Shown piece after piece: positions 23,322 through 41,217 of a stretch of 42,096 nt of DNA. The stretch's first letter is position 1. Each line of letters begins with the position of its first letter. This DNA comes from a virus: IMG/VR virus record IMGVR_UViG_3300012936_000043, positions 1 to 42,096 of that record; one strand, written 5' to 3'. The position numbers and the translations under genes are program-made. The notes under the pieces were generated by a model that was given only the letters and a program-made list of their open reading frames with translations, was not told the DNA's origin and ran no database searches.

Positions 23322-23324
23322 ATA
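23317..23324 (+). promoter_or_regulatory. Perfect T4 late promoter TATAAATA before the tail-tip genes
   Basis: An exact TATAAATA octamer overlaps the TAA stop (23319-23321) of the giant gene. Its predicted start, near 23330, lies about 16 bases before the ATG at 23346, with GGAAATAAG between. It is the best late promoter in the window and matches the presence of a gp55-like sigma factor. Confidence 0.75.
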
Positions 23325-23918: not shown

Positions 23919-23930
23919 TAGGAAAAAACG

Positions 23931-24866: not shown

Positions 24867-24867
24867 T

Positions 24868-26076: not shown

Positions 26077-26106
26077 TTGACATCTACATACTAAATAAGT
26101 TATATT
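26077..26106 (+). promoter_or_regulatory. Sigma-70-type promoter for the modification cassette
   Basis: In the 64-bp gap after the fibre genes, a perfect TTGACA (26077-26082) is followed after 18 bp by TATATT (26101-26106), a 5/6 match to the -10 consensus. The predicted start near 26113 precedes AAGGAG (26120-26125) and the ATG at 26135. It could allow the cassette to be made before late transcription begins. Confidence 0.6.
26090..26097 (+). promoter_or_regulatory. Possible late promoter ACTAAATA within the same gap
   Basis: ACTAAATA resembles the CTAAATA variant reported for late genes of marine T4-like phages. It lies between the -35 and -10 elements of the sigma-70-type promoter. If both work, the cassette has early and late transcription. 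The match is weaker than the TATAAATA at 23317. Confidence 0.35.
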
Positions 26107-26134: not shown

Positions 26135-26482
26135 ATGGATGAGAGACTCGAGAAAGCCCTCGAATTTGCAAATTACAGGACAACACTGTCAAATCAAAAA
26201 CGCAATATTAGAACTCGTATGCAAGTACTTCAAACAGTACATCATGATACAGGATCCTTTGTTGCTGATGAAAGAACAATTTCGTTTGTTGATGCATTGT
26301 TAAATTCTAAATTACAAACAGCAGTTATCGTTGATACTAAAGACAATCCTGTTGAAATTAAAGATCTTGATGAATTTAAACAAAAACTTTTAAGTGCTTA
26401 TACAGAAGCCTCCAACGAATATAAGATTCAAATGGATAAAATCAAACGAGCAAGAGATATTAAGAAAATTATGGATTGGTAA
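26135..26482 (+). CDS. Small conserved T4-like phage protein of unknown function
   Basis: The 115-residue protein is strongly helical and charged. It opens with MDERLEKALEFANYRTTL, followed by RNIRTRMQVLQTVHHDTGSF, and later IVDTKDNPVEIKDLDEF. I recognise this type as a conserved small protein of marine T4-like phages near baseplate genes, without an established function. A role as an assembly factor, comparable in size to T4 gp26 or gp51, is possible but is inference. It has a strong AAGGAG site and overlaps the next gene by one base (TAATG), so it leads the cassette operon. Confidence 0.55.
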   Translation: MDERLEKALEFANYRTTLSNQKRNIRTRMQVLQTVHHDTGSFVADERTISFVDALLNSKLQTAVIVDTKDNPVEIKDLDEFKQKLLSAYTEASNEYKIQMDKIKRARDIKKIMDW

Positions 26483-27393
26483 TGAGTGAAGAAGAAAATG
26501 GCATTTGCTTTTTTGCTTATAATAATGACCAATTAGATTATGTGAGATTTGCTCATATTGCTGCCGGTTATGTAAAAGCAAACATGAAAAATAACAAAAC
26601 ATGTCTCATCACTGATGATGGTACATATGAATGGTTAAAACAAAGTGTTGACCAAAAGTGGCACGATATATGTTTTGATCACGTCGTGGTTTCAAATCCT
26701 AATCATAGTACTACAAACAATAGAAAACATTTTGATAGTCCGTGGGCTGAATTTAGTGCTCCTTTTAAAAATAGTAACAAACACGATATTTTTACACTTA
26801 GTCCTTTTGAAAAAACAATACTATTTGATACAGATTACATTGTAAAAAACAATTTTTATGATTACATATTTGAAACCCAACATAGTTTAGCGATGCATCG
26901 AACCGCTACATATCTAGAACATCAACCTCCTTATATGAATGAAATTACTCTAGCTGACGGCGGTATACATCATTGGTGGAGTACAGTTGTATACTTTGAT
27001 AAAGCACAATATGAAGCTGAAATATTTTTTAATATTTGGAGTCATGTAAAAGATAATTGGGAATACTATGGTTTATTATATCAGTTCCCTAAAGGTCTTT
27101 TCAGAACAGATTTTTGTGTAAGTATTGCCGCACATTTATTAAACGGTTACAATGACGGAGAATTTGTTCATGACTTTATGAGTATACCTATGCGTAACAT
27201 GGATCAAAAAGATGATGTTATTAAAATTAATAGTTTAAATGACTGGACATTGTTAAGCCATAATAGACAAGAGCAATGGAAAAATATACTGAGTCGTAAT
27301 CAAGATTTTAATTTACATGTAATGAACAAACGTTCTTTAGATAGACATTCTAAAGAATTAATTGACCTATTACAGGAGAGACTAAATGTCTAG
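26482..27393 (+). CDS. GT-A-type glycosyltransferase (DxD motif), no. 1 of three
   Basis: The 303-residue protein has a nucleotide-diphosphosugar transferase layout: an N-terminal Rossmann-like segment (NGICFFAYNNDQLDYVRFAH), then SPFEKTILFDTDYIV with DTD at 116-118, the metal and sugar-nucleotide site. WWSTVVYFDK and a helical end complete the fold. The arrangement is closest to glycogenin-like (GT8-type) enzymes. The donor and acceptor are unknown. I place the start at ATG 26482, in a TAATG overlap with the previous gene. A TTG two codons upstream is less likely. Its C-terminus overlaps the next gene by eight bases. It and the following gene look like distant paralogues. Confidence 0.65.
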   Translation: MSEEENGICFFAYNNDQLDYVRFAHIAAGYVKANMKNNKTCLITDDGTYEWLKQSVDQKWHDICFDHVVVSNPNHSTTNNRKHFDSPWAEFSAPFKNSNKHDIFTLSPFEKTILFDTDYIVKNNFYDYIFETQHSLAMHRTATYLEHQPPYMNEITLADGGIHHWWSTVVYFDKAQYEAEIFFNIWSHVKDNWEYYGLLYQFPKGLFRTDFCVSIAAHLLNGYNDGEFVHDFMSIPMRNMDQKDDVIKINSLNDWTLLSHNRQEQWKNILSRNQDFNLHVMNKRSLDRHSKELIDLLQERLNV

Positions 27394-28264
27394 AGGCTTT
27401 ATAACAATTGGTATTGATACAGATACAGACAAAGTTAAAAACAATTATGTACTAGCATTAAGTCTGAAAGCATGTGATCCAACAGCAGAAATATGTATAG
27501 TAGTAGAAAAAAGCCAAAGCGATGCTATTGCTAAAAAATATGGAAGTGCATTTGATTATATAGTTGAGTTGCCATTCGGAAACACAGGATATGCAGATGG
27601 ATTTCACGGCAGTAATATTTGGCAAATTTTACACTGCACACCATTTGAAGAAACCATTTATCTAGATTATGATACATTTTTATTAGATGTTGATATACCT
27701 TTGTTGTGGGATAAGTTTAAAAATTATGATATTGCAATGCCTGTAAGTGCTAGAACTTATCGTAATCATATTATAAACAAAATGCACATGTTTGAAACAG
27801 AGATAGCCTATCAACTTCCTACATTTCATAATGAGTTAATTTATTTTAAAACTGGAAGTAAACTTGCTGTTGAATGGTTTAAATTAGCAGATCCGATTTT
27901 TCAAAATTGGAGAGAATCGTACAATGTATTTTTTAAAGAAAAAAAGCCGCAAACTTTTAACAAAAATATTTTGTGTAATTTAGTAACAGGAAATCTAGAT
28001 TGCTATCAAGAAGTAGGTATCTTTCTAAACAACTACTATGATTTACATACAAAAGGGCAATACTTCTGGAATGAAGATGTTCCTGTAGAATTAACTGAAC
28101 TATTAAATACTTGGTACAGTAGTAAATACGGTATGTTTATTGAAAACAGTTTAATTAATAGCGGTATTATACATTTCAGAGACGAAAATCTGATAACTGA
28201 AGAAATTAGAAATGACTTTAAATCAATTGTTGACTACAAAGAAGCCACCAGCCAAACAACGTAA
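27386..28264 (+). CDS. GT-A-type glycosyltransferase (DxD motif), no. 2 of three
   Basis: This 292-residue protein begins with a strand-helix unit (GFITIGIDTD, then NYVLALSLKACDP) and has TPFEETIYLDYDTFLLD, with DYD at 94-96 in the DxD position. That motif matches SPFEKTILFDTDYIV of the preceding protein in spacing and context, so the two are probably related. Later HNELIYFKTG and IIHFRDENL suggest acceptor-side strands and the C-terminal His seen in GT8-type enzymes. Its sugar is unknown. GGAGAG (27375-27380) supports the ATG at 27386. The gene overlaps its upstream neighbour by eight bases and the downstream one by up to 53. Confidence 0.65.
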   Translation: MSRGFITIGIDTDTDKVKNNYVLALSLKACDPTAEICIVVEKSQSDAIAKKYGSAFDYIVELPFGNTGYADGFHGSNIWQILHCTPFEETIYLDYDTFLLDVDIPLLWDKFKNYDIAMPVSARTYRNHIINKMHMFETEIAYQLPTFHNELIYFKTGSKLAVEWFKLADPIFQNWRESYNVFFKEKKPQTFNKNILCNLVTGNLDCYQEVGIFLNNYYDLHTKGQYFWNEDVPVELTELLNTWYSSKYGMFIENSLINSGIIHFRDENLITEEIRNDFKSIVDYKEATSQTT

Positions 28265-29216
28265 CTTTTATGTATATTTTGATGAGTGGACTGGAGGAAT
28301 TACAAACTTAACAAATAAACAGCGTTTGAATTCAAATGATCCGTTTTTAATTACTAGCGATCCAGTCGCTGGAGAAATTATGCTAGGCATTAGAAATATT
28401 AAAAAATACGTTGTTGCAGATTTAGTAGATGGATACAAATTAGTTCTTAAAGATGATTACCTCAGACTTAAAAAAGCAGAAGACTATCTAAGTAAAGTAC
28501 CACAAGTTAATTTTTCAGTTAATAGAGACGTTAATATTATTATGTACTTAAATTCGTATAAGTTAGAAGTTAATATTAGTCACGATCTTATGTATAAATT
28601 AACTGGAAAAATTTATGCTGAAAACGTAAACTTTCAAAAGCATGGCGAAACTTATGATAAAATTACGTTTTACATTGTAGAGAAAAACAATCCAATCCAT
28701 TTGTTAGAAACAATTGAAATTGATCCTGTTGAGCTACTTGAAAAAGGTTACATAATGTTTGACCTGAGTAGTTTACAAACTGTAATTGCACTTAAAAATG
28801 TAGACATACTTACTAGACGAATGTTTAAATCCTACGGTCTAAAGATAAAACAAACTTATGTAGCTTTAGATTATGGGTTAAATAGAAAGAGAAACAAAAG
28901 AACGCATAACAAAATTTTGCCAGAGACTATCGAAGAGTATACTGCATTTTCAATTACACCAATTGATGCAGGCTGGATAATTAAAAGTAACTTTAAGGAT
29001 CCACATGAACATAGAATATATAAGGATGTTAGGGTTTATATTACAGACGAAAACCCTAATGTTTTATTAGACGAAATTGTTTTACCTTATGATAGGATAG
29101 GTAATGAACAACAGTTTATTGCTTATACCGATGTTGATAGCAAAAAATGCAAATTGTTAATTGGAGAAGAAGGAATGAACATAACATTCAAATTTGAGGA
29201 GATGGTAAATGTCTAA
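28212..29216 (+). CDS. Unknown beta-rich protein in the modification cassette
   Basis: I do not recognise this 334-residue protein. It opens with RNFYVYFDEWTGGITNL, has a middle part rich in short beta strands (INFSV-like and IIMYLNSYKLEVNIS) and ends with paired strands (GWIIKSNFKDP, VRVYITDENP, NITFKFEEM). No signal peptide, membrane segment or cysteine motif is visible. It may be a virion protein or an accessory scaffold for the glycosyltransferases flanking it. The ATG at 28212 gives a 53-base overlap with the previous gene. TTG at 28227 or 28230 would shorten that overlap, so the start is uncertain. It overlaps the next gene by eight bases behind GAGGAG. Confidence 0.5.
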   Translation: MTLNQLLTTKKPPAKQRNFYVYFDEWTGGITNLTNKQRLNSNDPFLITSDPVAGEIMLGIRNIKKYVVADLVDGYKLVLKDDYLRLKKAEDYLSKVPQVNFSVNRDVNIIMYLNSYKLEVNISHDLMYKLTGKIYAENVNFQKHGETYDKITFYIVEKNNPIHLLETIEIDPVELLEKGYIMFDLSSLQTVIALKNVDILTRRMFKSYGLKIKQTYVALDYGLNRKRNKRTHNKILPETIEEYTAFSITPIDAGWIIKSNFKDPHEHRIYKDVRVYITDENPNVLLDEIVLPYDRIGNEQQFIAYTDVDSKKCKLLIGEEGMNITFKFEEMVNV

Positions 29217-30192
29217 TATGGTTAGCATAAATGATTTTGATATAGTTTATATCAGTTATGATGAACCAAATGCAGATGAAAATTATGCAGATCTCCTTGA
29301 AAAATGTCCTTGGGCTAAACGTAGTCATGGAGTGTGGGGTAGTGATGCCGCACATAAAGCCGCCGCCGCATTAAGTGAAACTGATCGTTTCATTACAGTA
29401 GACGCTGATAATATTGTCAATGACGACTTCTTTAATATTGAACTTGATATGAACCGAATCGGTCCTACTCACGTTATTAGTTTTGCCGCAAAAAATATAG
29501 TAAACGGTTTAGTATATGGCAATGGCGGAATTAAAATGTGGCCCGTAGATGTTGTAAACAAAATGCGTACACATGAAGCCGCACCTGAGAGCGATAAAAG
29601 AGCGCAAGTAGACTTTTGTTGGAATATTCATTATGTACAAATGAACAATTGGTATAGTTGGGTACATAATAATGGTAGTCCTCTACAAGCGTGGAGAGCA
29701 GGTTTTCGTGAAGGTGTTAAGATGGGTTTAGAAAACGGTGACATTGTACCACCTGAACAAATAAAAAACGTCTTCCATGAGAACTACAGACGTCTTATGG
29801 TATGGATGACAATCGGTGAAGATACACCCAATGGGCTTTGGGCTATATACGGAGCAAGACTCGGAGCATACATGACAAACATTACACGTCATGAATGGGA
29901 TTGGAGAAATGTACGTGACTTTGATTGGTTGACCAAGTATTTTAATACTGAACTTTTACCGGAGTTTGAAGATGGAACAGAAATGTGTCCACGTACAGGT
30001 ACAACTTGGAATAAAGAAAAACTTAAAGAACGTACAATAGAACTTGGTAGTGAACTCAGAGGAAAATTAGATCTAGAAATAGCAGATGTTGGTAAAGAAG
30101 GATCTCGTTTTTGGAAAACTGTGTATCGAAACCCAGCAAGACTAGGACCTCAAATTAGAGAAGATCAAGTGATAGAGACTATCGAGGATTAA
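29209..30192 (+). CDS. GT-A-type glycosyltransferase-like protein (DxD motif), no. 3 of three
   Basis: The 327-residue protein has an N-terminal strand (FDIVYISYDEPNADENYADL), a helix with GSDAAHKAAAAL and then DRFITVDADNIVNDDFF, with DAD at 65-67. This is the GT-A order: nucleotide-binding strand, helix, DxD. FAAKNIVNGLVYGNGGIKMW follows, a glycine-rich acceptor-loop type segment. I have seen this architecture in marine phage proteins annotated as glycosyltransferases. It is not closely similar to the two upstream GT-like proteins. The family resemblance is moderate and the sugar unknown. It starts behind GAGGAG, overlaps the previous gene by eight bases and is followed three bases later by the first radical SAM gene. 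Confidence 0.6.
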   Translation: MSNMVSINDFDIVYISYDEPNADENYADLLEKCPWAKRSHGVWGSDAAHKAAAALSETDRFITVDADNIVNDDFFNIELDMNRIGPTHVISFAAKNIVNGLVYGNGGIKMWPVDVVNKMRTHEAAPESDKRAQVDFCWNIHYVQMNNWYSWVHNNGSPLQAWRAGFREGVKMGLENGDIVPPEQIKNVFHENYRRLMVWMTIGEDTPNGLWAIYGARLGAYMTNITRHEWDWRNVRDFDWLTKYFNTELLPEFEDGTEMCPRTGTTWNKEKLKERTIELGSELRGKLDLEIADVGKEGSRFWKTVYRNPARLGPQIREDQVIETIED

Positions 30193-30195
30193 CCA

Positions 30196-31203
30196 ATGGC
30201 TCTCGGTGAACAAGGTTTTTACAATATATTAGATCATCATCATTCTGCCGCCAAGGACTGGGTTGTAGTAAATTGGAACTTGGGCAACATGTGTAATTAC
30301 AGTTGTAGCTATTGTCCAAGTATTCTTAATGACGGATCTTTTGGTTGGAACGACTTTGATATTATAAAATCATTTATTGATAGTGTAGTTGAACATTATT
30401 CTCCACGTAAAGTATATTTTGAATTTACTGGCGGGGAAGTAACACTATGGCGTGACTTTATTAAATGTGTAGAGTACATTAAAAGTATAGATCATGACAT
30501 TGGATTTATTAGTAACGGTAGTAGAACATTAAGATGGTGGGAAAAGAACAAAGACTTATTTGACCATGTATGTTTAAGTTTTCATCCCGAACATGCAAAA
30601 GCAGACCACTTCTTTGAAGTTGTAAAAATTATGAGTAAATGTTGTAGGACTCACGTAAATGTTATGGGTCATACAGATATAGAAAAATTTAAACTTGGTA
30701 TTGAACTTAGCGAAAAATTATGTCAAGAAGTTGAAAATATAAGCATGGCATTTCAGCCCTTAGTTGTCGACTTTGGCGAAGAAAGATTCCCATATACAAA
30801 CGAACAACAAACAATATTTGATGATCAGTATGTACTCTTCGGTAGTAAAGTAAAACATACTCGTGAATTTAAAATCTATCGTGGAAGTATGGATATGATA
30901 GATTCAATCAATGAACTACAAGCAAATAGTAGCGCACATCGCTTTATTGCTGATAATAGTAATAATTGGAAAGGTTGGGATTGCTGGGCAGGAGTTGAAC
31001 AGATTATTGTAGACTTCGATGGTAGTGTATGGAGAGGTTGGTGTCGTGTAGGAGGTATGCTTGGAAAAATGCAATATCCAAACGATGTACGTTTTCCTGA
31101 TGTACCAGTCAGATGCAATAAAAGTTATTGTCATTGTAATTTTGATATTATGTGTAAAAAAGTTTTACCTGAACATAGATATGTTGTTGAGGAAGATGAA
31201 TGA
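30196..31203 (+). CDS. Radical SAM enzyme with C-terminal SPASM-like auxiliary cluster domain
   Basis: The CxxxCxxC signature is C33-C37-C40 (MCNYSCSYC). It binds the 4Fe-4S cluster that cleaves S-adenosylmethionine. TGGEVTLW (79-85) is the SAM-amino-group GGE motif. The C-terminal part holds six cysteines arranged C263-x19-C283, then C307-x4-C312-x-C314-x5-C320, a pattern expected of a SPASM- or twitch-type auxiliary iron-sulfur domain. Such domains occur in enzymes that modify peptides or sugars. The segment around C263-C283 (NNWKGWDCWAGVEQ, VDFDGSVWRGWC) is repeated at the N-terminus of the next protein. The gene starts three bases after its upstream neighbour and overlaps the next one by four bases (ATGA). 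The substrate is unknown. Confidence 0.88.
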   Translation: MALGEQGFYNILDHHHSAAKDWVVVNWNLGNMCNYSCSYCPSILNDGSFGWNDFDIIKSFIDSVVEHYSPRKVYFEFTGGEVTLWRDFIKCVEYIKSIDHDIGFISNGSRTLRWWEKNKDLFDHVCLSFHPEHAKADHFFEVVKIMSKCCRTHVNVMGHTDIEKFKLGIELSEKLCQEVENISMAFQPLVVDFGEERFPYTNEQQTIFDDQYVLFGSKVKHTREFKIYRGSMDMIDSINELQANSSAHRFIADNSNNWKGWDCWAGVEQIIVDFDGSVWRGWCRVGGMLGKMQYPNDVRFPDVPVRCNKSYCHCNFDIMCKKVLPEHRYVVEEDE

Positions 31204-32585
31204 CACTTGTAAGTAATCCAGATGTACCATTGGACAACAAACAACTTCGTGTATATAGTAGTACAGGCGAATACACAAGAGTAAGTGTAGACGAAGCAAT
31301 TGCTAGGGGATTGAATAGTTGGAAAGGCTGGAAATGTAGTGCTGGTGTCAGAGGACTTTATATTGACTATGACGGAAACATATGGGCCGCAAACTGTGCT
31401 AGTGCAGATCGTAATAGTACTGCACATTTTGATATGGTCGTAGAAGAATGGAGACAGGAAAGAGAACGTATTTTTGGACCTTATCCTCATGTAAACTGGT
31501 ATAATGAAAACACAGAAGGTGGTTGGCCTTTACCTAAAGAAGGTTGGGAAACTTGTGAACAACATGTAAAGTTACAAGAAGAACTAAAAAAAGCTGAAGC
31601 AAAGTTTTTTGCTAATCTCGGTAAAAACATGAACAGCGAAGTTAAAAAATATAATACAACAGCTAGTGCTTGGAAGTGGGAAAGCACACTCGATGACACC
31701 AAAAACAATTGGGGTCTTATGGGTAACATTAGGGAAGGACTTGATATTCCCGAAGATTACTTAACTTGTCCTTACAATAGTTGTGGTTGCGGTGCTGATG
31801 TAATTCTGAGCAAATATAAAAATGAAAAACATAAGTTTTTATTAGATGTAACGCATAACGGCACCAAAGGAACAATGCGTACAGCTATGTATAGAGATGA
31901 ATTGAATACAAATAATCTAGTCGGTGCAGAAATGAATTTTGATATTCCATATCAAATATTATGGGATATAGGTCGTCGATGTAACTATAATTGTACTTAC
32001 TGTTGGCCCGCTGTACATAGTAATACTGAAAAGTTTCCTAGTATAGAAACAGTTATCACTACAATAGATATGATGATTGATAACTGGAGTAACGGAGAAA
32101 CTATACGTTGGAACTTTGGAGGCGGCGAACCGACTATGCATCCACAATTCTTAGATATTATTAAACATTTGAAGTCACGTAACCAATGGGTGCTTGTAAC
32201 TACAAACGGAAGTCGTAGTACTAAGTTTTGGACAGAAGCAAGTAAATACATCAACAGTGTAAACATGAGCGCACACTTTGCTAGTATGGACTTATACAGA
32301 GGCAATGAACAACGCTTTATTGATAATTGTAAAATTATTATGGATCATCATGATAAAGTAGATGACGACAATTGGCTAGAGATTAAACTAATGACCCCAT
32401 CAGGATTATTAGAACGAGCGCAAAAGTTTAGAGATAGAATATTAGAAATTGAAACTTGGCATCGACCTGGAGCAAATGGTAGACAAAAAGGTAGTTTAAG
32501 TCTTGTTCCTATTAGGGATATAGAAGATAGTAAGAGTTTAATAGACTATAGCGATAATGAGATAGAATTTTTTAAACAGCAATGA
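31200..32585 (+). CDS. Radical SAM enzyme with N-terminal auxiliary cluster domain (permuted order)
   Basis: The catalytic core is C-terminal: C261-C265-C268 (RCNYNCTYCW) and FGGGEP (GGE 308-310). The N-terminal 200 residues contain C46-x19-C66 and C190-x4-C195-x-C197. These spacings are the same as in the C-terminal auxiliary domain of the preceding protein. The surrounding residues also match: NSWKGWKCSAGV with IDYDGNIWAANC against NNWKGWDCWAGV with VDFDGSVWRGWC. The spacer between the two cysteine groups is longer here (123 residues against 23) and includes C119. The core stops at YSDNEIEFFKQQ, about where the neighbour's core passes into its auxiliary part. So the two proteins seem to be the same modules in opposite order. 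The gene overlaps both neighbours by four bases. Confidence 0.85.
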   Translation: MTLVSNPDVPLDNKQLRVYSSTGEYTRVSVDEAIARGLNSWKGWKCSAGVRGLYIDYDGNIWAANCASADRNSTAHFDMVVEEWRQERERIFGPYPHVNWYNENTEGGWPLPKEGWETCEQHVKLQEELKKAEAKFFANLGKNMNSEVKKYNTTASAWKWESTLDDTKNNWGLMGNIREGLDIPEDYLTCPYNSCGCGADVILSKYKNEKHKFLLDVTHNGTKGTMRTAMYRDELNTNNLVGAEMNFDIPYQILWDIGRRCNYNCTYCWPAVHSNTEKFPSIETVITTIDMMIDNWSNGETIRWNFGGGEPTMHPQFLDIIKHLKSRNQWVLVTTNGSRSTKFWTEASKYINSVNMSAHFASMDLYRGNEQRFIDNCKIIMDHHDKVDDDNWLEIKLMTPSGLLERAQKFRDRILEIETWHRPGANGRQKGSLSLVPIRDIEDSKSLIDYSDNEIEFFKQQ

Positions 32586-33418
32586 ACAATATTAAAGCCA
32601 AAATTAAAAAAGCAGATCCTGTTTTAATTTTATATCCTGCAGGCTTAGGTGGTGAACATATTGCTCACACATTAACTACATGCAACGATGATTTTGAAAA
32701 AACTGCAATGTTGTATAATGAAAAAGTAAATCAATTTCATACTGTTTGTGTGTTTAAGTATAGTAGTGAAATATCAGACATAAATGATGTAAGCACAGCA
32801 ATTGATATACAATACAAAGGTGAGTTTCCGAACACTAGTAAACGTATTGTTCTTAAAGATCATACTACAGAACTTTCATTTGAATTTTATAAAAAACATT
32901 TTCCTAATATAACAATACTATGTTTAATAGCAGAAGATACCGATAGTATTAATTATTTTGCTGAACTTACATTTAAAAAACTTGCAAAAAAGATAACAAG
33001 TCCTATTGACGAATGGTATGTAAAAAATGAAATAAGCCAAGATTGCACTCCAGAAGAAGCTGTTCATGTAATTAACCAAGTCAATAAATTTAGATGGGTT
33101 TGGAGACATGAAGCCCATATTTTAATAAATCATATGAGATCAAGAAACTCTCAAATAGATTTAGAACATTCAAATGACTTAACAAAAAGCATTTCTAACC
33201 ATAAACATGACATAATAAATACCAATAGAAAAATAGATTCGTATAAAGATTTTTTTACTAATTTCCATTTCATCTCAGTTGATGATTTAGCACTAACCGA
33301 CGATAGTGAAACTGTATGGCGAGAAATCAATAAACATGTTGGTTCAATTGATGTTGTGAAAGCAAAACAATTGACCAATGAATGGATCCGAAAGAACAAC
33401 AAGTTAAGTTTATTATGA
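32582..33418 (+). CDS. Unknown protein, possibly sulfotransferase-like
   Basis: The 278-residue protein begins with DPVLILYPAGLGGEHIAHTL, a strand, glycine-rich loop and helix unit that resembles the 5'-phosphosulfate-binding loop of PAPS-dependent sulfotransferases or another P-loop. KRIVLKDHTTELSFEFYKKH, then FPNITILCLIAED, resembles the second conserved strand of that fold. The C-terminal half is helical with RWVWRHEAHILINHMRSRN. No metal-binding or cysteine motif is seen. The sulfotransferase reading is a weak inference, helped by the company of other tailoring enzymes. It overlaps the upstream and downstream radical SAM genes by four bases each (ATGA), so it is firmly part of the operon. 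Confidence 0.35.
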   Translation: MNNIKAKIKKADPVLILYPAGLGGEHIAHTLTTCNDDFEKTAMLYNEKVNQFHTVCVFKYSSEISDINDVSTAIDIQYKGEFPNTSKRIVLKDHTTELSFEFYKKHFPNITILCLIAEDTDSINYFAELTFKKLAKKITSPIDEWYVKNEISQDCTPEEAVHVINQVNKFRWVWRHEAHILINHMRSRNSQIDLEHSNDLTKSISNHKHDIINTNRKIDSYKDFFTNFHFISVDDLALTDDSETVWREINKHVGSIDVVKAKQLTNEWIRKNNKLSLL

Positions 33419-35100
33419 GTGAAATAGAACTAACAAACGAAGAAATTAATCAAGACAATAAATTTGATTTGTCTATTTGGAGAAGTATGGACCAACGTAT
33501 CGAAATGGTACAGGATCCTGATTGTCCAGTAGAAGTTATTGAAGTAGTAATAGAACACGATGAAGATCAGCAAGTTGTACTAGGAACATTACTAAGTCGC
33601 CATATGAATGACGAAAGATTACAACTTATAAGTGATAAGCACGGTTATACTATAAAAGAATTAAAAGATAAACGTAAAGCTATGATTGCATTAAAAGACG
33701 ATGCAAGAACTAAAGTGTTTTGCGGAGTACCTTGGAATCATGTTAGTACTAATGCAAATGGTAGTATCAGAATGTGTTGTCAAATGATTAACAGTGACGG
33801 ATTTGAAGGTGAAGAAGCATTTGGCACAGTGTTTAAAGATGATGGTAATGTTCTTACTACTATGGATGATCTAAGTCAACACAGAAATGCAAAGCAGTGG
33901 AAACGTCTTAGAAAAGAAATGATGCAAGGTATAAAAAGTCCTATTTGTAAACTATGTTGGGATGAAGAAGATAATGGCATTGGTAGCAGACGTCAGTGGA
34001 CAAATGATATTTTTAATGATTTATTTGAACGAGCTGTAATTAATACTAGTGATGATGGCACTATTCATCATAAAGACTTTCCTATTGAACATTGGGATCT
34101 TAGATTTGGAAATAAATGTAACTTAGCTTGTCGTAGCTGTGGCCCAGGTGATAGTGACCTTTGGTATAAAGACTTTGTAGCAATGAATGAAAGAGATACA
34201 TTTCATACTAGAGGTGTTGGGGAAGTTAAAATTGACATAGACGACAAAGGAAAAGCTTCTATTAAAGATAGTCCGTTTGAATGGTTTAATAAAGGTGATT
34301 TGTTGTCAACAGTACAAAAAAGTTTACATGAGATTAAACGATTTTACTTCACAGGCGGCGAGCCTACTGTTAATTTAACACACAGAAAGCTATTACAATA
34401 TGCTATTGATAATAATTATGCTAAGAACATTACATTAGATTATAATACTAATATGGCAGGTGTACCTAAGGCTATTTTTGAACAATGGAAACACTTTAAA
34501 CAAGTTAATTTAGGCATGAGTATCGACGGTATATATGAACACTTTGAATATATTAGATATCCTGGTAAATGGCCTACTGCTCATAGAAATATGTTAAGAG
34601 TAGACAAAGAAGAAGGATTTGAAAACTGTAGTGCTAATATTACAATGACTGTTAGCATAATGAATATACTTCATGTTTTAGATATGCAATGGTGGATGAA
34701 AGAACAAGGTTGGGATCGTATTAACGAAAATATTATTATTCATAACTTGTATGGTCCAAGGCATTTAAATACGCAAAATATGCCTACCGCTATGAAAACA
34801 TATGTTACTGACAGATATAATAAGTTTTTTAAAGACATTAAAAAACAATGGCCAGATGATCTTGCTTGGTCTCGATTAGTAGAAAAACGTTTTCAAAGTA
34901 TATTACAACATATGAATGGATCTGAAGGCGATCCAGCAGATTGGAAAAACTGGTTTGTACAAGGACAAAAATTAGATGGCATTCGTAACGAAAATTGGAA
35001 AGAAAGTTTACCTGAAATACAGCAGATGATTACATTCTGTCAGGGTCGAGAAGGGAGAAAGCGTGATGTCAAATTGGTCTCAGCAAATAAAAGAAAATAA
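33415..35100 (+). CDS. Radical SAM protein with N-terminal twitch-type domain (N_Twi_rSAM-like), long form
   Basis: I take the ATG at 33415 (ATGA overlap with the previous stop), giving 561 residues. Residues about 33-80 (DPDCPVEVIEVVIEHD, then QQVVLGTLLSRHMNDERLQL) look like leucine-rich-variant or HEAT-like helical repeats. An auxiliary cysteine domain follows: C103, C121-C122 (GSIRMCC), C178 and C181 (ICKLCW). The core signature is C235-C239-C242 (KCNLACRSC), with FTGGEP (GGE 314-316). This order, twitch before the radical SAM core, matches the phage- and bacterium-borne family named twitch domain-containing radical SAM protein. The reaction is unknown. The C-terminus runs about 35 bases into the next gene, which is of the same family but lacks the helical repeats. 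Confidence 0.85.
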   Translation: MSEIELTNEEINQDNKFDLSIWRSMDQRIEMVQDPDCPVEVIEVVIEHDEDQQVVLGTLLSRHMNDERLQLISDKHGYTIKELKDKRKAMIALKDDARTKVFCGVPWNHVSTNANGSIRMCCQMINSDGFEGEEAFGTVFKDDGNVLTTMDDLSQHRNAKQWKRLRKEMMQGIKSPICKLCWDEEDNGIGSRRQWTNDIFNDLFERAVINTSDDGTIHHKDFPIEHWDLRFGNKCNLACRSCGPGDSDLWYKDFVAMNERDTFHTRGVGEVKIDIDDKGKASIKDSPFEWFNKGDLLSTVQKSLHEIKRFYFTGGEPTVNLTHRKLLQYAIDNNYAKNITLDYNTNMAGVPKAIFEQWKHFKQVNLGMSIDGIYEHFEYIRYPGKWPTAHRNMLRVDKEEGFENCSANITMTVSIMNILHVLDMQWWMKEQGWDRINENIIIHNLYGPRHLNTQNMPTAMKTYVTDRYNKFFKDIKKQWPDDLAWSRLVEKRFQSILQHMNGSEGDPADWKNWFVQGQKLDGIRNENWKESLPEIQQMITFCQGREGRKRDVKLVSANKRK

Positions 35101-36301
35101 ACATTTTTGCATACTACCTTTCACTCATATGCACTTAGGAACAGATAATGTAGCAAAGGTATGTTGTGTCTCTGATTGGAATGATAATATAACAACTGAT
35201 CTTACTGGAAAAACATTCGAAGAAATTTGGCACAGTCCTAATTATCAAAAAGTAAGACAAGATATGCTAGATGGCAAGCGTGTTAATGCATGTAATCTAT
35301 GTTACAAAACAGACGAAGAAGGAGGCGGCAGTGACAGATTTACACATAATCATTACTTCAGACCTCCATCAGACGATTGGGATATTTCTGTTGAGAATGG
35401 AAATACATTAGGAAGACCATTATGGCTAGACTTACGTCCTGGAAGATTTTGTAATCTTGGATGTAGGATGTGTTTTGTTGCAGTTAGTAGTACGTTTGCA
35501 GATGAACACAAAAAGCATCCAGAATTAGAAGCAGTAACAGGAGAGAGTTGGTTTGACTTACCTGAATGGATTGATAATCCTTCTATGTATGAAAGTTTAC
35601 AAGCACTTGTACCACATGTTACTACTATCAAACTTGCAGGAGGTGAACCTTTGTTTATGCCTGGAGTAATTAAATTTCTAAGATGGTGTGTTGAAAGTGG
35701 CAATACACACTTACGTTTAGATATTACAACAAACGGTACTAGAGGAAAAGGTAAAGTAATTAATTGGTTAGAAAAGTTTGATTCAGTCGATATTCAATAT
35801 AGTATTGATGGCATAGGATACACAAACGATTATATTAGACATCCAAGTAAATGGAGTGTAATCGAATCTAATTATCAAATGTATAGAGAAATTCCTACAG
35901 TAAACATGTTAAATATACTAAGCACAGTGCAAGCCTATAATATTTTTAATTTGCCTAATATTATTGACTTTTGGAAAGAACATACATCACATATGTTAGT
36001 TTTTAATTTTGTTAATTGGCCGACTGATATGAGTATAGAAATAATTCCATATGAAGATAGATTAGAAGTAGCAGATCAAATTGAAGAACGTATAAAAGAC
36101 CTACCAGAACATAGAAAAAAACAGGGTAGAATGGATGCAACTCTTTTCAAGCTAAGATCTAAATTTGATAACCTAGATGAGCGTAGACTTAAATGGGCTG
36201 AAAGAACAGTTATGTATGATAAAATACGTAATCAAGATGTAGGCTTAGTACATCCTAAATTAGCAGAGTATAGGGACGAATGGCTAAAGATAAAGATATA
36301 G
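35066..36301 (+). CDS. Radical SAM protein with N-terminal twitch-type domain, short form
   Basis: The 411-residue protein begins directly with the auxiliary domain: C15 (FCILPFTHMHL), C33-C34 (AKVCC), C76 and C79 (ACNLCY). The core follows with C129-C133-C136 (FCNLGCRMCF) and AGGEPLF (GGE 192-194), then ITTNGT and IQYSIDG strands. The N-terminal cysteine pattern C, CC, CxxC is the same as in the preceding protein, so the two are paralogues. I choose ATG 35066 over the GTG one codon earlier. AAGGGAG (35051-35057) fits either start. The start lies inside the previous gene. The function is unknown, but the two may act in sequence or as a pair. Confidence 0.85.
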   Translation: MSNWSQQIKENKHFCILPFTHMHLGTDNVAKVCCVSDWNDNITTDLTGKTFEEIWHSPNYQKVRQDMLDGKRVNACNLCYKTDEEGGGSDRFTHNHYFRPPSDDWDISVENGNTLGRPLWLDLRPGRFCNLGCRMCFVAVSSTFADEHKKHPELEAVTGESWFDLPEWIDNPSMYESLQALVPHVTTIKLAGGEPLFMPGVIKFLRWCVESGNTHLRLDITTNGTRGKGKVINWLEKFDSVDIQYSIDGIGYTNDYIRHPSKWSVIESNYQMYREIPTVNMLNILSTVQAYNIFNLPNIIDFWKEHTSHMLVFNFVNWPTDMSIEIIPYEDRLEVADQIEERIKDLPEHRKKQGRMDATLFKLRSKFDNLDERRLKWAERTVMYDKIRNQDVGLVHPKLAEYRDEWLKIKI

Positions 36302-38331
36302 TCTTTGAAAGTGAAGATAGAGATGAAATTATTAAAAAACTTATTGAGCAAGATCGAATTGATCATGCAGAAAGTCATCTCGGCGACACACAAAGAATAC
36401 CTGTACAACCAAAAATACACCCTAGAGGCTACAACTATTATACAGAACTAAATCCTTATGAAGGAGAAGATGGCATAACAATGGTCATTGCGCCTGCGTG
36501 GGGTATTATTTTCCCTCCATATAACATTGCAAGACTCAGTGGATTGTTACGACATTATGGGTATAGAGTTACAGTACACGACTTAAACATTGAATGCTAT
36601 CATTATTGCAAAGAAAATCATGACAAAGATTTTTGGGAAAGTAGATATTACTTTGCTTGGGAGCGTCCTGTATATGATGATGAAGTTTTTCCTATTATAA
36701 AACCTAAACTAGATGAAAGTATAGAAAAGATATTAGAAGAAGGTGATGATATAGTTGGATTTAGTGTATATCTAACTAACTTATTAAGCACTATGTATAT
36801 GATTGAACAAATTAAAAAACGTAGTCCAAGTACTAAGATTGTAGTAGGCGGCCCTGAAGCGTTCAATGATTGGTTTGAAGATTTAATTTACAATACACTT
36901 AAATTCAAGTCTGGCGTTATTGACTTTCGTATTACTGGAGAAGGCGAGCAAGAATTGTTAACACTATTGGAAAACTATAAAGAGCTTCCAATGAGTAAAG
37001 ATATGATTACATTCGGTGGCTTTCAAAGTAAACTAGATCTAAATCAGTTACCCTTTCCTGATTATAGTGATTATGATTTAAACTTATACCAACACCCTGA
37101 AGGAGCGAGTATCGAAACTAGTCGAGGATGTGTTGCTAAGTGTAGTTTCTGTGCAGAAACTTGGTTTTGGAAATATAGATTCAGAACAAGTGATCGTGTT
37201 ATTGAAGAAATGCAACATCAAATTGATACATATGGTACTCGTAGATTTTGGTTTGTAGATAGTCTTGCTAACGGTGCATTTAAAGAATTTAAAAATCTAG
37301 TAAACATGATAGTAGATAGAAAACTAGATATTAGATGGAATAGCTATGCTCGTTGTGATGGACGAATGGATTTAGAATTATTTCAAAAGATAGCTGATAG
37401 TGGTTGTATGAGTCTTAGCTTTGGAGTTGAAAGTGGAAGCGAACAAGTCTTAGACGACATGAAGAAAAAAGTTAAAGTATGGGAAATTGAAAACAACTTA
37501 CGTGATGGTGCTACTGTTGGGATGAAGAATCATGTTAACTGGGTTGTAGGTTTTCCTACTGAAGGTCCTGCAGAATTTTTACATAGTTTACATGTGTTGT
37601 ATAATACAAGAAAATGGATGTTTGCAATTAGTCCAGGGATGACTTGCGGTGATGCACCATTTAGTGATTTAAATGTAAACTGGCAAGAATATAAATTACA
37701 ATGGAATGAAAAGCCTTGGGATAATACATTTATGAGTAATTGGTATACAGAAAATTATGCCAATACTATTTTACATCGATTTATAAGATTAAAATTTATG
37801 CAAGTATGGTTATACCTTGCTAATAACATCTCAGACGGTACAGTAAAAAATGCACAGTTTAGACCTGGACTAACAAAGTTTTTTGACTTTAAAAAATTAA
37901 CAGATAACAGTATTGTAGATTACATTCCACAAGAACAAGGACAAAACTTTGATTATTTTACTGGCGATACAGATCAATCACAATTTAGTGCAAGTTTAGC
38001 AAACGAGTATTTGCCGTTTGCTTGGATGTTATATAAAACTTATGGTGCATTTGAATTAAATTTGCGTCATGATTTGGATGAAGATCTAGCGGAGTTTGGC
38101 GGATTTATTGTGAGTCCATATTGGGGAACTGTTTACTTACGTGTAGATAAAAATGAACAACTTACATTTAAAGTAAATCATAGATTCGAACATAGAACAA
38201 CTAGAGAAGATCCCAGAGTAGAGAACGAAGAAATTCCAAGACAGGATATGAGTTTTGACTGGAAAGAATATAAGATAGAATGTGATGTAAATAATTTTAA
38301 TGGAGTTGTGTTAAATGAATCTGAGTTATGA
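36280..38331 (+). CDS. B12-binding-type radical SAM protein (class B methyltransferase-like architecture)
   Basis: The 683-residue protein has an N-terminal Rossmann-like domain of the cobalamin-binding type. IAPAWGIIFPPYNIARLSGL with HYGYRVTVHDLN opens it, EEGDDIVGFSVYLTN and STKIVVGGPEA follow, and DFRITGEGEQELL closes it (about residues 65-235). The radical SAM core has C284-C288-C291 (RGCVAKCSFC), then FVDSLANG, RWNSYARCD and LSFGVESGSEQVLDDMKK. This is the layout of B12-dependent radical SAM enzymes, many of them methyltransferases and some ring-forming or hopanoid enzymes. The cobalamin-coordinating DxHxxG motif is not seen, as in many members that still use B12. A long C-terminal part (about 470-683) is unassigned. 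The start overlaps the previous gene by 22 bases. Confidence 0.82.
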   Translation: MAKDKDIVFESEDRDEIIKKLIEQDRIDHAESHLGDTQRIPVQPKIHPRGYNYYTELNPYEGEDGITMVIAPAWGIIFPPYNIARLSGLLRHYGYRVTVHDLNIECYHYCKENHDKDFWESRYYFAWERPVYDDEVFPIIKPKLDESIEKILEEGDDIVGFSVYLTNLLSTMYMIEQIKKRSPSTKIVVGGPEAFNDWFEDLIYNTLKFKSGVIDFRITGEGEQELLTLLENYKELPMSKDMITFGGFQSKLDLNQLPFPDYSDYDLNLYQHPEGASIETSRGCVAKCSFCAETWFWKYRFRTSDRVIEEMQHQIDTYGTRRFWFVDSLANGAFKEFKNLVNMIVDRKLDIRWNSYARCDGRMDLELFQKIADSGCMSLSFGVESGSEQVLDDMKKKVKVWEIENNLRDGATVGMKNHVNWVVGFPTEGPAEFLHSLHVLYNTRKWMFAISPGMTCGDAPFSDLNVNWQEYKLQWNEKPWDNTFMSNWYTENYANTILHRFIRLKFMQVWLYLANNISDGTVKNAQFRPGLTKFFDFKKLTDNSIVDYIPQEQGQNFDYFTGDTDQSQFSASLANEYLPFAWMLYKTYGAFELNLRHDLDEDLAEFGGFIVSPYWGTVYLRVDKNEQLTFKVNHRFEHRTTREDPRVENEEIPRQDMSFDWKEYKIECDVNNFNGVVLNESEL

Positions 38332-39424
38332 ATTACCAAAAAAAATATTCTGTACATTTGCTAATGATAGTATTGCAGAAATTGAACTAATACAAAATGA
38401 AGCAGTTGCTATATGGTGGCGTAGTTACGTACAAAATAATTTTATGGGTACATATACTCAGAGTCATGATCCGGAACTTAAAGGTGACCCTAAGTTTAAA
38501 GAAGATCCTGTCTCGGTGTCAATGATAAATCAACATATAGATAAAGTAGAAGAAATAACTGATACTGATTGGGGCATTAGAGCATATGATGGAATGGATC
38601 ATTCTATAACTAATTCTATACATAGAATGTTTACTACTAGTACAGCAACATATCAAAAAACACATTTAGTACCAGACTCTACTAGAAACTTCATAATAGA
38701 TAAAAAACAAAACGAATTTATAGATCACCATACAGCAACAACTCGAGTATATAAAGATTCCTATAATCATGAAATAACACACTTCAGCGAAAATAGAAGA
38801 AGTGAACTACAGGAAAGTTTACAGAGTATTAACAGTTGGATACATATATATGAAGCAAATCGACAATATAGCAATCGTTCAGTTACTGATAAGATTACTA
38901 ACACGATTGTAGTTGATATAGATTTAAAAAATGTAGACGGTAGTTATATATGGGCACATAAATATGAAGAAATAGCACAGCCCGAACTGTCAGTTGACTT
39001 GATGCATCTTGTACATACTAAGCCTGGAGCTAATGTTTACGCCAATAAAAAAATAATGGGCAAAGATTATTTTACTACATATTTTGATTATGACAATCCG
39101 TTAGAATGGGACGTAACTAATGTACAAGTTCTTGACGGAAGTTTTCAAATTGATTATGAAGATACGTATGAAAATAGAATAGAAAGCCAAGACTGGAAAG
39201 ATTGGGTTGCCGAATATAAATTAAATAGTAAAAGTACATACAGTAACTTACAACTCGGAACAGTAACTAACAATTGGTGCAATGAGTTAAAGCAATATGC
39301 ATATAGTAATTCGACGGACAAAAGACCAAAAGACATAACTAAAGATCCATCAACTGTTACTAAAGTTAGTGAAGTAAATCACATTGAACCAGACTGGCAA
39401 TTAAAGGATATAAGGATAGAGTAA
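38315..39424 (+). CDS. Unknown protein in the modification cassette
   Basis: I do not recognise this 369-residue protein. It starts with a strand-rich unit (KKIFCTFANDSIAEIELIQN, then AIWWRSYVQNNF) and continues with polar, Tyr- and Asn-rich sequence containing FIDHHTATTRVYKDS, IWAHKYEEIAQPELSVDLMH and TYFDYDNPLEWD. Several His, Asp and Glu residues could bind metal, but no known motif stands out. There is no membrane segment or cysteine cluster. It overlaps the B12-type radical SAM gene by 17 bases and ends one base before the oxygenase-like gene, so it probably acts with them. It could be a substrate-carrying or acceptor-recognising protein. This is speculation. Confidence 0.45.
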   Translation: MNLSYELPKKIFCTFANDSIAEIELIQNEAVAIWWRSYVQNNFMGTYTQSHDPELKGDPKFKEDPVSVSMINQHIDKVEEITDTDWGIRAYDGMDHSITNSIHRMFTTSTATYQKTHLVPDSTRNFIIDKKQNEFIDHHTATTRVYKDSYNHEITHFSENRRSELQESLQSINSWIHIYEANRQYSNRSVTDKITNTIVVDIDLKNVDGSYIWAHKYEEIAQPELSVDLMHLVHTKPGANVYANKKIMGKDYFTTYFDYDNPLEWDVTNVQVLDGSFQIDYEDTYENRIESQDWKDWVAEYKLNSKSTYSNLQLGTVTNNWCNELKQYAYSNSTDKRPKDITKDPSTVTKVSEVNHIEPDWQLKDIRIE

Positions 39425-39425
39425 T

Positions 39426-40187
39426 ATGGAAAGAATTAAAAAAGATGAATATTTAGACAAGTATATAAAATCAGACTATTACAAAGATACTAGTTTCGAA
39501 AGTCAGATACATGAAAATTGGTTAAGCAATGAAGAATTAGATGCGTTTGAAGAGGCATCTAAGTCAGATAATATATATTATGTACATGATACTAGTATGA
39601 GTCCAGTAGCAAAACGACTTGGTCTTGAACCAAATGATGACAACAATGAATACACAACAGCTAATTATTATATATTCAATGATTTTTATACTCGACCACA
39701 TTGGGAACATTTAGTAGATATTATACAACCTAAATTAGAAGCAACGTTTGGTAATGATATTATAGCCAGTCACATACATGTTTTAGATAGCCGGTTTCCA
39801 TACGGTTTACACAACGATGCTGAACAAGAAAATATGAAACTTGCTCCAAATCCAGCTTGGACATTAATTGTTCCATTTGATGATTATCCTAGTAAGACAT
39901 ATGTATTCAATGAAAGAAGCGGATACAAAGATCCTTGGTCTTGGATTAATAATAATGAAATACCAGCAAACGATTATTGTATTGATAAAGAAACATTTGC
40001 AAAAGATTTTGATCCATTTACTGATTATGAATTAATGAAATTTTTGTCAGTACAATGTACTTTCCCTTGGAAGCGGGGTAGCTGTTTTGCCGCTGATAGA
40101 TTTAATTATCATTGCAGTGATAATTTTTATAATCATGGCATTAAAAGTAAAAAAGCAATTATTATGTGGACTAGTAGAAAAGATTAA
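39426..40187 (+). CDS. 2-oxoglutarate/Fe(II) oxygenase-like protein
   Basis: The 253-residue protein has features of the double-stranded beta-helix oxygenases. FPYGLHNDAEQ carries H129-x-D131, the facial metal ligands. TLIVPFDDYPSKTYVF is the central strand pair. KRGSCFAADRFNYHCSDNF carries the candidate distal ligand H229. A 2OG-binding Arg is expected about 10 residues after H229. Only Lys residues lie there (KSKKAIIMW), so co-substrate binding is uncertain. Such enzymes hydroxylate peptides, sugars, lipids or nucleobases. The pattern HxD...H with prolyl-hydroxylase-like spacing supports the fold. It is the last gene of the cassette and is followed by a new promoter. Confidence 0.55.
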   Translation: MERIKKDEYLDKYIKSDYYKDTSFESQIHENWLSNEELDAFEEASKSDNIYYVHDTSMSPVAKRLGLEPNDDNNEYTTANYYIFNDFYTRPHWEHLVDIIQPKLEATFGNDIIASHIHVLDSRFPYGLHNDAEQENMKLAPNPAWTLIVPFDDYPSKTYVFNERSGYKDPWSWINNNEIPANDYCIDKETFAKDFDPFTDYELMKFLSVQCTFPWKRGSCFAADRFNYHCSDNFYNHGIKSKKAIIMWTSRKD

Positions 40188-40190
40188 ATC

Positions 40191-40219
40191 TTGACATTGG
40201 TTGATTAATCTGTTATAAT
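40191..40219 (+). promoter_or_regulatory. Consensus sigma-70 promoter with extended -10
   Basis: Perfect TTGACA (40191-40196), a 17-bp spacer and perfect TATAAT (40214-40219) are preceded by TG at 40211-40212, making an extended -10 (TGTTATAAT). Transcription would start near 40226, ahead of AGGAG (40232-40236) and the ATG at 40249. It is the only exact match to the full consensus that I found in an intergenic region of this window. Confidence 0.85.
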
Positions 40220-40248: not shown

Positions 40249-41217
40249 ATGATTACATGGGGCTGGACAGGCATGGTTCGTGATGCAAGTCTCGCAGTTT
40301 TTAGTAGTGACGGCTTAGAGTTTGCCGCACTTAGTGAACGTTATAGTTTTAAAAAGAACGATAAACATCTACATAAAGACTTGATTGCAGACGCATTAAA
40401 TTACGGTAAGCCTAATAAAATTTATTTTTATGAACGTCCGAATCTTAAAAAGACAAGACAACTATGGGCAAGACAGTATACACTACTGTGGAAAGAATCA
40501 CCTACAACATATATACGTAAATTCTATAAAGATGCACCACGTTGTACTACAACTAGTCATCATTTAAGTCATGCGGCGTTTGGTTATTACACAAACAATT
40601 TTGATTATTCCAATGCCGCAGTGCTTGTAATAGATAGCGTTGGTGAGTGGGAAACTATTAGTATATGGGAAGGTAAAGGTACTAAACTTAAAAAACTATG
40701 GAGCCAGTGTTATCCGAATAGTATAGGCATATGGTATAGTGCTATGACACAGCGTATAGGTCTAACGCCACAAGAGCAAGAACATGAACTTATGAACATG
40801 GCAAAAATAGGCGATCCAGACAAGTATTACAAACTAATAAAAACAGACTTTATTAAAAAAATGCCATCACTAAGTGATCCACGTGTATTATTCAAACGTA
40901 ATTTTCACAGAGGATGTAGAGACTGGCGTACCGATTTGAATACTGTACAAGATTATGCTGATATTGCTGCCGCAACTCAACGTATATACGAAGAAATATT
41001 GGATGCACTTTTATCTATAACAGCAGACAAAACATTTACAACTAACATAGTTCTTGTAGGAAGTTGTATTCTTGATTGTGTAGCGAATGAAAGAGCGTCT
41101 AAGTATTTTGACAAAGTTTGGATCCCACCCCATCCCGGAGATGCAGGAAGTGCAATAGGTTGTGTATTAGCACATCGGCGTCAATTTTGTTTAATAAATA
41201 ACTACATATTTAATTAA
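40249..41217 (+). CDS. Carbamoyltransferase (NodU/CmcH/TobZ type), Kae1-like domain only
   Basis: The 322-residue protein covers the N-terminal Kae1-like half of O-carbamoyltransferases. Visible parts are WGWTGMVRDASLAVF, TSHHLSHAAFGYY with the metal-binding HxxxH (HHLSH), AAVLVIDSVGEWETIS, and VLVGSCILDCVANERAS with IPPHPGDAGSAIGCVLAHR. In this family that half joins carbamoyl-adenylate to a hydroxyl of a sugar or antibiotic. The second half (about 200 residues), which makes carbamoyl-adenylate from carbamoyl phosphate and ATP, is missing. The protein ends with an unrelated-looking tail (RQFCLINNYIFN), and no other frame continues the domain. It could be inactive, could use a partner protein or could act on another adenylate. 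Its own promoter and the gene after it suggest expression apart from the upstream cassette. Confidence 0.8.
   Translation: MITWGWTGMVRDASLAVFSSDGLEFAALSERYSFKKNDKHLHKDLIADALNYGKPNKIYFYERPNLKKTRQLWARQYTLLWKESPTTYIRKFYKDAPRCTTTSHHLSHAAFGYYTNNFDYSNAAVLVIDSVGEWETISIWEGKGTKLKKLWSQCYPNSIGIWYSAMTQRIGLTPQEQEHELMNMAKIGDPDKYYKLIKTDFIKKMPSLSDPRVLFKRNFHRGCRDWRTDLNTVQDYADIAAATQRIYEEILDALLSITADKTFTTNIVLVGSCILDCVANERASKYFDKVWIPPHPGDAGSAIGCVLAHRRQFCLINNYIFN
41193..41200 (+). promoter_or_regulatory. Possible late promoter AATAAATA before the tctA-like gene
   Basis: AATAAATA lies in the end of the carbamoyltransferase gene, with a predicted start near 41206 and the next ATG at 41228. AGGA (41219-41222) follows. 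If used, the transporter gene would also be transcribed late. Confidence 0.35.

Follow-up and report, generated by a model that had tools for sequence, protein, structure and literature searches.

We analyzed a gene unit of putative glycosyltransferases (GTs) and radical S-adenosylmethionine (rSAM) enzymes in a 42,096-base virus record of IMG/VR (IMGVR_UViG_3300012936_000043; hereafter, the window), where it sits directly after the tail genes (Table 1; genes are named for their predicted product or first position, and contigs of relatives carry G or L numbers). Twelve same-strand genes extend from 26476 to 40187, joined by gaps of 3 and 1 nucleotides (nt) and otherwise by overlaps of 4–53 nt, and gene 26135 precedes this run, overlapping GT1; two gaps longer than 50 nt flank the unit, one on each side. 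Because a conserved promoter lies upstream of 26135, the transcription unit, judged by its sequence context, more likely starts at that gene than at 26476. An initial annotation, made from the sequence without database searches, had described ten consecutive genes that abut or overlap on one strand directly after the tail genes; the arrangement stands, but the run holds twelve genes and its start likely lies at 26135. No membrane proteins were predicted in the unit, and its intergenic gaps (≤3 nt) leave no room for a precursor-peptide gene.

Glycosyltransferase and radical SAM genes of the unit

The first part of the unit, 26135–GT1–GT2–28212–GT3, probably encodes two to three GT-A-type glycosyltransferases, for which the initial annotation had counted three genes with DxD motifs. 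GT2 resembles glycogenin-1 by profile match. GT1 had no PDB match by profile search and is assigned by its motif. A profile search of PDB with GT3 returned nothing meaningful, and its confident predicted structure (predicted local distance difference test score, pLDDT, 86.7) found its best Foldseek matches among the GT-A enzymes SunS, ThuS, TarS and TarP, with a weak superposition (E 1.5e-4, TM 0.28). Family searches with 28212, Pfam and NCBIfam among them, matched nothing.

Exactly five Radical_SAM domains (PF04055) occur in the whole record, at 30196, 31200, 33382, 35063 and 36280, bearing out the five rSAM genes of the initial annotation. Four pass the gathering score, and 33382 reaches 27.4 bits, or 30.2 bits with neighboring pieces, against a cut-off of 29.5. 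The CxxxCxxC motif is invariant among homologues of rSAM1, rSAM2 and B12-rSAM. In rSAM1, C33/C37/C40 are accompanied by C263, C283, C307, C312 and C314, all invariant in 12 homologues, and among PDB sequences this protein was matched best by the peptide epimerase YydG (E 6e-7). In rSAM2, C261/C265/C268 are accompanied by C46, C190, C195 and C197, invariant in 11 homologues; its domain order is inverted relative to that of rSAM1, the C-terminal region of rSAM1 matching the N-terminal region of rSAM2 homologues.

Twi1 and Twi2, diverged paralogues with 23% identity, score well above the 170-bit cut-off of NF033640 (NCBIfam), whose name gives a domain layout and not a function; here, in distinction to the NF033640 proteins, they form a tandem pair beside B12-rSAM. 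The B12-rSAM protein, 36280, has the layout of class B (cobalamin-dependent) rSAM enzymes, in that a B12-binding domain precedes the rSAM domain, an order shared with B12-dependent methylases such as PhpK and the C-methyltransferases of ribosomally synthesized and post-translationally modified peptides (RiPPs). It is neither PhpK (TIGR04479, 124.6 against a cut-off of 600) nor a RiPP C-methyltransferase (TIGR03975, 114.9 against 281.85 bits), and its long N- and C-terminal extensions, unlike those methylases, set it apart as a phage family of its own.

The remaining genes are less readily placed. No family was found for 32582, and a PDB profile search with it gave nothing meaningful; the predicted structure of 38315 is unreliable (pLDDT 41). 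As a side observation, contigs L060 and L071 carry a tandem pair of B12-rSAM genes with a 38315-like gene in between. The HxD...H oxygenase of the initial annotation, 39426, keeps its motif in two sequences and had no Pfam, NCBIfam, PHROG or PDB match, so 'oxygenase' is a motif-level label; a scan of viral contigs with this gene matched one contig, already known.

Table 1 Features of the unit and of its surroundings in the window
Feature	Position	Strand	Evidence or remark
sigma70-type promoter TTGACA-18-TATATT before 26135	26077..26106	+	11/12 consensus match
26135, first gene of unit, 115 aa	26135..26482	+	linked to GT block; homologues in GT3 loci
GT1, putative GT-A glycosyltransferase	26476..27393	+	D118, D120 (DxD) invariant in 13 homologues
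GT2, glycogenin/GT8-like glycosyltransferase	27386..28264	+	profile against glycogenin-1, E 7e-6
28212, gene of GT block	28212..29216	+	same position in related loci
GT3, GT-A-like glycosyltransferase	29209..30192	+	D65, D67 invariant
rSAM1, radical SAM, C-terminal Cys-rich twitch-like region	30196..31203	+	PF04055, E 1.4e-8
rSAM2, radical SAM, N-terminal Cys region	31200..32585	+	PF04055, E 8.5e-13
32582, P-loop-like YPxGxGGE motif at N terminus	32582..33418	+	Y18, G21, G23, G24, E25 invariant in 8 homologues
Twi1, N-twitch radical SAM	33382..35100	+	NF033640, 337.6 bits
Twi2, N-twitch radical SAM	35063..36301	+	NF033640, 313.2 bits
B12-rSAM, B12-binding radical SAM	36280..38331	+	PF02310, 39 bits (cut-off 32.1); PF04055, 56.5 bits
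38315	38315..39424	+	weak tail-fiber PHROG match, E 0.005
39426, putative 2-oxoglutarate/Fe(II)-type oxygenase, last gene of unit	39426..40187	+	HxD (129, 131) and H229 kept in one 62% homologue
perfect sigma70 promoter TTGACA-17-TATAAT before 40249	40191..40219	+	12/12, in 61-nt gap after 40187
40249, truncated NodU/TobZ-type carbamoyltransferase, starts next unit	40249..41217	+	PF02543, E 6e-33
Late-transcription sigma factor	548..1426	-	PHROG 12791, E 1.4e-88
Baseplate wedge genes, gp25-like and gp6-like	8204..12105	+	PHROGs 43 and 10646
Giant structural protein, 3739 aa	12102..23321	+	position and size match 11–13 kb structural genes of PA5oct, Atu_ph07
T4-late-promoter-like box TATAAATA	23317..23324	+	29 nt upstream of tail gene 23346
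Three tail/fiber genes 23346, 23931, 24868	23346..26070	+	

Conservation, promoters and phage lineage

A search of related contigs for the same gene order, which the initial annotation had proposed, found GT1–GT2–GT3–rSAM1–rSAM2–Twi1–(Twi2)–B12-rSAM kept in ~10 distinct contig groups, and the order is therefore not due to chance. The same gene order is found in a 120-kb relative, G001 (L015), in which the rSAM proteins are 64–88% identical to those of the window, against 22–39% for gp6 and the tail structural genes. Between the two, the rSAM genes differ at nonsynonymous sites by a dN of 0.07–0.28 with dS about 1 or saturated; since synonymous sites are near saturation, the similarity of the rSAM genes largely reflects purifying selection. 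The Twi2–B12-rSAM stretch, with third positions ~65% identical, may have been exchanged more recently. At 68–80 kb, G001 also carries a second cluster of five more rSAM genes with a GT3-like gene, a PP-loop gene (QueC-like in L042) and a carbamoyltransferase, which brings this contig to ten rSAM domains in total.

The initial annotation had treated the run as a single coherent operon; instead, evolutionary distances divide it. Pairwise distances correlate at 0.70–0.94 among tail gene 23346, 26135, GT1, GT2 and GT3, and at 0.91–0.94 among Twi1, Twi2 and B12-rSAM. Between 26135/GT1–GT3 and Twi1/B12-rSAM the correlations are 0.14–0.29 and mostly not significant, and with Twi2 they are negative (6–7 taxa only). 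Tail gene 23346 correlates with Twi1/B12-rSAM at 0.43–0.47 in a smaller comparison, and rSAM1 and rSAM2 are intermediate between the modules. Because distances correlate within each group and mostly not between them, they indicate that the unit is composed of two modules of different history, a tail-linked GT block and an independently exchangeable rSAM cassette.

Gene neighborhoods were compared at loci picked for their resemblance to a single query gene, which are thus not a random sample of phages. A scan of viral contigs with GT3 confirmed at least 593 places, of which the best 80 were considered and 49 had enough flank: GT1 was present in 48/49, 26135 in 47/49, and any recognized rSAM gene within 4.5 kb in 29/49. 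In L160, L165, L167, L175, L182 and L193, rSAM genes lie in opposite orientation beside an intact GT block. From the corresponding B12-rSAM scan, the best 80 of 157 relatives were kept, yielding 40 lineages (90% clusters) with flanks. Within 6 kb of B12-rSAM, a twitch rSAM gene was found in 37/40 lineages, rSAM1 in 21, GT3 in 16 and a carbamoyltransferase in 9. Some contigs exceed 300 and 500 kb (L181, L197). Downstream gene content varies from contig to contig, and glycan-type genes near the cassette in other phages include a cytidylyltransferase (PF02348), carbamoyltransferases and weak sulfotransferase and GDSL matches.

For promoters, upstream regions were grouped by sequence clustering, with expectations from dinucleotide shuffles. 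Upstream of 26135 homologues, sigma70 promoters matching at least 10 of 12 consensus positions occurred in 24/46 clusters (2.1 expected) and those matching at least 11 of 12 in 18/46 clusters (0.2 expected), at a steady distance. Before GT1 and GT2 homologues no sigma70 promoter rose above chance; rSAM1 and B12-rSAM homologues were near chance, and GT3 homologues showed a mild excess (8 against 3.7). In T4-type phages, sigma70 consensus promoters are established as driving host-polymerase, usually early, expression. By this analogy, we infer from the sigma70-type promoter before the unit that its transcription by host RNA polymerase is possible as soon as infection begins. Late-only expression, considered given the linkage to tail genes, is weakened by the same promoter.

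A T4-late-promoter-like box precedes tail gene 23346. Boxes of this kind are enriched upstream of 23346 homologues (20% against 1.4% in mononucleotide shuffles; 4 clusters against 0.8 expected from dinucleotide shuffles). The window contains one copy of TATAAATA, the -10 box of T4 late promoters, against 9.0 (standard deviation 3.1) expected; apart from the tail-gene start it is depleted, a pattern that would fit avoidance of the sequence at places other than genuine late promoters.

After 40187 and the 61-nt gap, a second unit begins with a carbamoyltransferase and a TctA gene. The carbamoyltransferase 40249 has 322 aa, against 512 aa in its homologue in L035, to whose residues 15–320 it aligns; its C-terminal third is missing, and it thereby departs from the two-domain layout of NodU/TobZ. 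TctA follows directly, and 40249 resembles a shortened gene left over where recombination joined two stretches; even so, a perfect sigma70 promoter precedes it. The TctA gene (41228–42094; PF01970, E 5e-68) is a phage-encoded permease gene. In L003, a TctA gene (16317–17810) is followed by a gene at 17846–18910 with a signal-peptide-like start, which may encode a TctC-type binding protein and had no Pfam match.

The upstream part of the window places the phage. Besides the gp25- and gp6-like genes it includes a gp5-like baseplate gene, and of the three tail/fiber genes, 23346 matches PHROG 11259 (E 1e-53), 23931 matches virion and tail-fiber PHROGs, and 24868 is so called from its position. 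The gp6 protein is 38–41% identical to those of PA5oct, Atu_ph07 and Erwinia, Xanthomonas, Serratia and Salmonella jumbo phages (the best listed among 87 records), and PA5oct has the same gene order as the window up to the tail genes. Based on this similarity and the shared gene order, we assign the window to an uncultivated lineage of jumbo T4-related myophages of the PA5oct/Atu_ph07 type. In PA5oct and Atu_ph07, the stretch past the baseplate, structural and tail genes has no rSAM or GT annotation. Among 50,697 phage records, GT3, rSAM1 and 39426 had zero matches, and the other cassette proteins tested found distant matches only.

The host recognition clusters (HRCs) of pelagimyophages and cyanomyophages, reported in 2020 to contain rSAM gene cassettes together with GTs (PMC7029224), are similar in layout: a giant VrlC-type gene followed by fibers and GTs, resembling in layout only the giant gene, tail genes and GTs of the window. 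The backbone differs, and an assignment to these phages, which that report had prompted, was ruled out by the baseplate homology and synteny with PA5oct-type phages.

Chromosomal counterparts in Bdellovibrionota

A pattern scan for rSAM2 across 84,980 species genomes found two loci only, both in Bdellovibrionota, and for this reason our profile searches of chromosomes covered that phylum. rSAM2-like proteins were matched in 26/291 genomes, rSAM1 in 19/369 and relatives of B12-rSAM in 31/369. In some of these genomes the enzymes are clustered. L123 combines GT2-like, AsnB-like and NodU genes with rSAM1, two twitch rSAM genes and B12-rSAM; L108 and L125 hold rSAM1, twitch rSAM genes, a GT2 fusion and rSAM2, with B12-rSAM in L108. 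Beside rSAM homologues lie GT1 and an ABC-2 exporter in L104, DegT (a sugar aminotransferase) and a methyltransferase in L079, and flagellins in L089 and L105, with NodU in L089. Clusters L104, L108, L123 and L125 thus bring together the same kinds of enzymes as the phages, with NodU, GT2 and AsnB-like genes near; they differ in that the phage GT block does not precede them and in that rSAM1 at times lies inside longer proteins. One chromosomal protein of 643 aa (L079, 5333–7264) ends in an rSAM1 domain, and its N-terminal half is GT-like by eye, with no Pfam match. Genes for dihydrofolate reductase and thymidylate synthase lie beside rSAM genes in both a phage (L052, 6033–7396) and a chromosome (L089, 11019–12319).

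These counterparts bear on whether the unit is a pathway at all. If it were a hypervariable host-recognition island that gathers cargo genes unrelated to one another and serving no common pathway, one would see what is seen in part: modules that recombine, downstream content that differs among contigs, and a truncated carbamoyltransferase in the window. We nevertheless consider this improbable, given that ten groups share the order of the rSAM core and that purifying selection on it is strong, and given the frequent pairing of twitch and B12-rSAM genes, and the similar enzyme sets in chromosomes.

Proposed glycan tailoring and competing functions

Glycan tailoring is the best-supported class of function for the unit as predicted from its genes, because soluble GTs occur together with rSAM enzymes, space for a precursor is lacking, and glycan-type genes neighbor the homologues in phages and cells. 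The initial annotation had proposed that the unit builds or alters a glycan, a glycopeptide or a virion surface, a proposal that our results support in part.

Twitch and SPASM rSAM enzymes often act on peptides. The kinship of rSAM1 with YydG and the appearance of the glycocin S-glycosyltransferases SunS and ThuS among the best fold matches of GT3 would fit RiPP-like modification of a peptide, or of one of the cassette's own proteins (38315, 32582 or 28212, for example). RiPP maturase models score far below their cut-offs, however, the gaps in the unit leave no room for a precursor gene, and the neighbors are of glycan type, which makes such modification quite improbable; a RiPP cluster as such was ruled out by the lack of precursor space and the low model scores. 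That the GTs and rSAM enzymes act on bases, and so hypermodify phage DNA or nucleotides, is in our judgment highly improbable. QueE-like PHROG and QueC-like Pfam matches offer weak leads, and DNA-glycosylating phage GTs exist (cited in PMC12619734), but no nucleotide-modification partner was found in the unit, which adjoins tail genes, and the cellular homologues sit by surface-glycan and flagellin genes.

The sequences establish which genes the unit contains, how they are arranged, which of them co-occur, how the histories of the modules differ, where promoters lie and which glycan-type genes are neighbors in phages and cells; the substrate, reactions, timing and purpose are our inference. 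We tentatively propose, with somewhat less than even confidence, that it is a glycan-tailoring island driven by host RNA polymerase and acting on the host surface. The conserved cytosolic GT block next to the tail genes would build or extend a sugar chain, and the rSAM cassette (rSAM1, rSAM2, the two twitch rSAM enzymes, B12-rSAM and the putative oxygenase) would alter the sugar at unactivated carbons. To judge by enzyme class, B12-rSAM would C-methylate, and the twitch rSAM enzymes would oxidize, epimerize or deoxygenate. The host-type sigma70 promoter would permit expression by host RNA polymerase from the start of infection, and the host surface glycan would be changed so as to mask a receptor or exclude rival phages.

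The main rival to host-surface tailoring is that GT1–GT3 glycosylate the phage's own tail fibers and that the rSAM cassette tailors those glycans. It accords with the locking of the GT block to tail genes (47/49 loci) and their co-inheritance, with the cytosolic location of all enzymes of the unit, and with the flagellins that adjoin 2/6 chromosomal rSAM1–rSAM2 loci, which favor a protein filament as target. In many bacteria the flagellum is a glycosylated filament. For phage GTs that act on the virion there is a precedent in mycobacteriophages, cited in PMC12619734; no role for rSAM enzymes is mentioned there, and the unit described here differs in having a sigma70 promoter of its own. We favor the host surface as target and regard virion glycosylation as unlikely, since the unit has this promoter where a virion-modifying unit might rely on the late one, and since the rSAM cassette does not track the GT lineage that is linked to the tail.

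Several observations weigh against host-surface tailoring. The unit is without a flippase, polymerase or lipid-carrier enzyme and would therefore depend on host glycan machinery or a cytosolic acceptor. That the GT block is linked to tail genes fits virion glycosylation too, and read-through from the late promoter could also express the unit. On chromosomes, the neighbor counts are small, and hence suggestive only, both for flagellin (4/36 neighbors against 0/78 controls, from 2/6 loci) and for GT, DegT, NodU and ABC-2 (one neighbor each), and many copies of rSAM2 or rSAM1 lie among unrelated genes.

The combination of rSAM cassettes and GTs in phages was already published with the HRCs, for which an altered host O-chain was proposed as the role (PMC7029224); the available text of that report does not name the enzymes, modules or promoters of these cassettes. 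The initial annotation knew of no defined phage pathway of such composition, which holds for the chemistry but not for the joint occurrence of rSAM cassettes and GTs. What is new is the lineage, the anatomy in two modules, the twitch–B12 core, the conservation of the promoter and the existence of counterparts on chromosomes.

Genes for rSAM enzymes recur in marine viral surveys under guessed labels (MoaA/NifB/PqqE, QueE-like); a Baltic survey counted 261 'ahbD' genes, found both rSAM domains on three contigs only and called the function speculative (PMC9301287). One such rSAM group is now tied to a conserved set, a tail-linked GT block with a twitch/B12 cassette and its own promoter. It is possible, although on balance doubtful, that a mobile B12- and twitch-rSAM pathway driven by host polymerase makes an undescribed modified sugar and is common to jumbo phages and Bdellovibrionota chromosomes; phages would then exchange the enzymes next to a GT block that stays with the tail genes, and so keep altering the exterior of virions or of the cells they infect. 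If the glycan-tailoring reading is right, phages would perform radical chemistry on glycans, and giant phages and relatives of predatory bacteria would share a group of enzymes for unknown sugars that can be put to the test.

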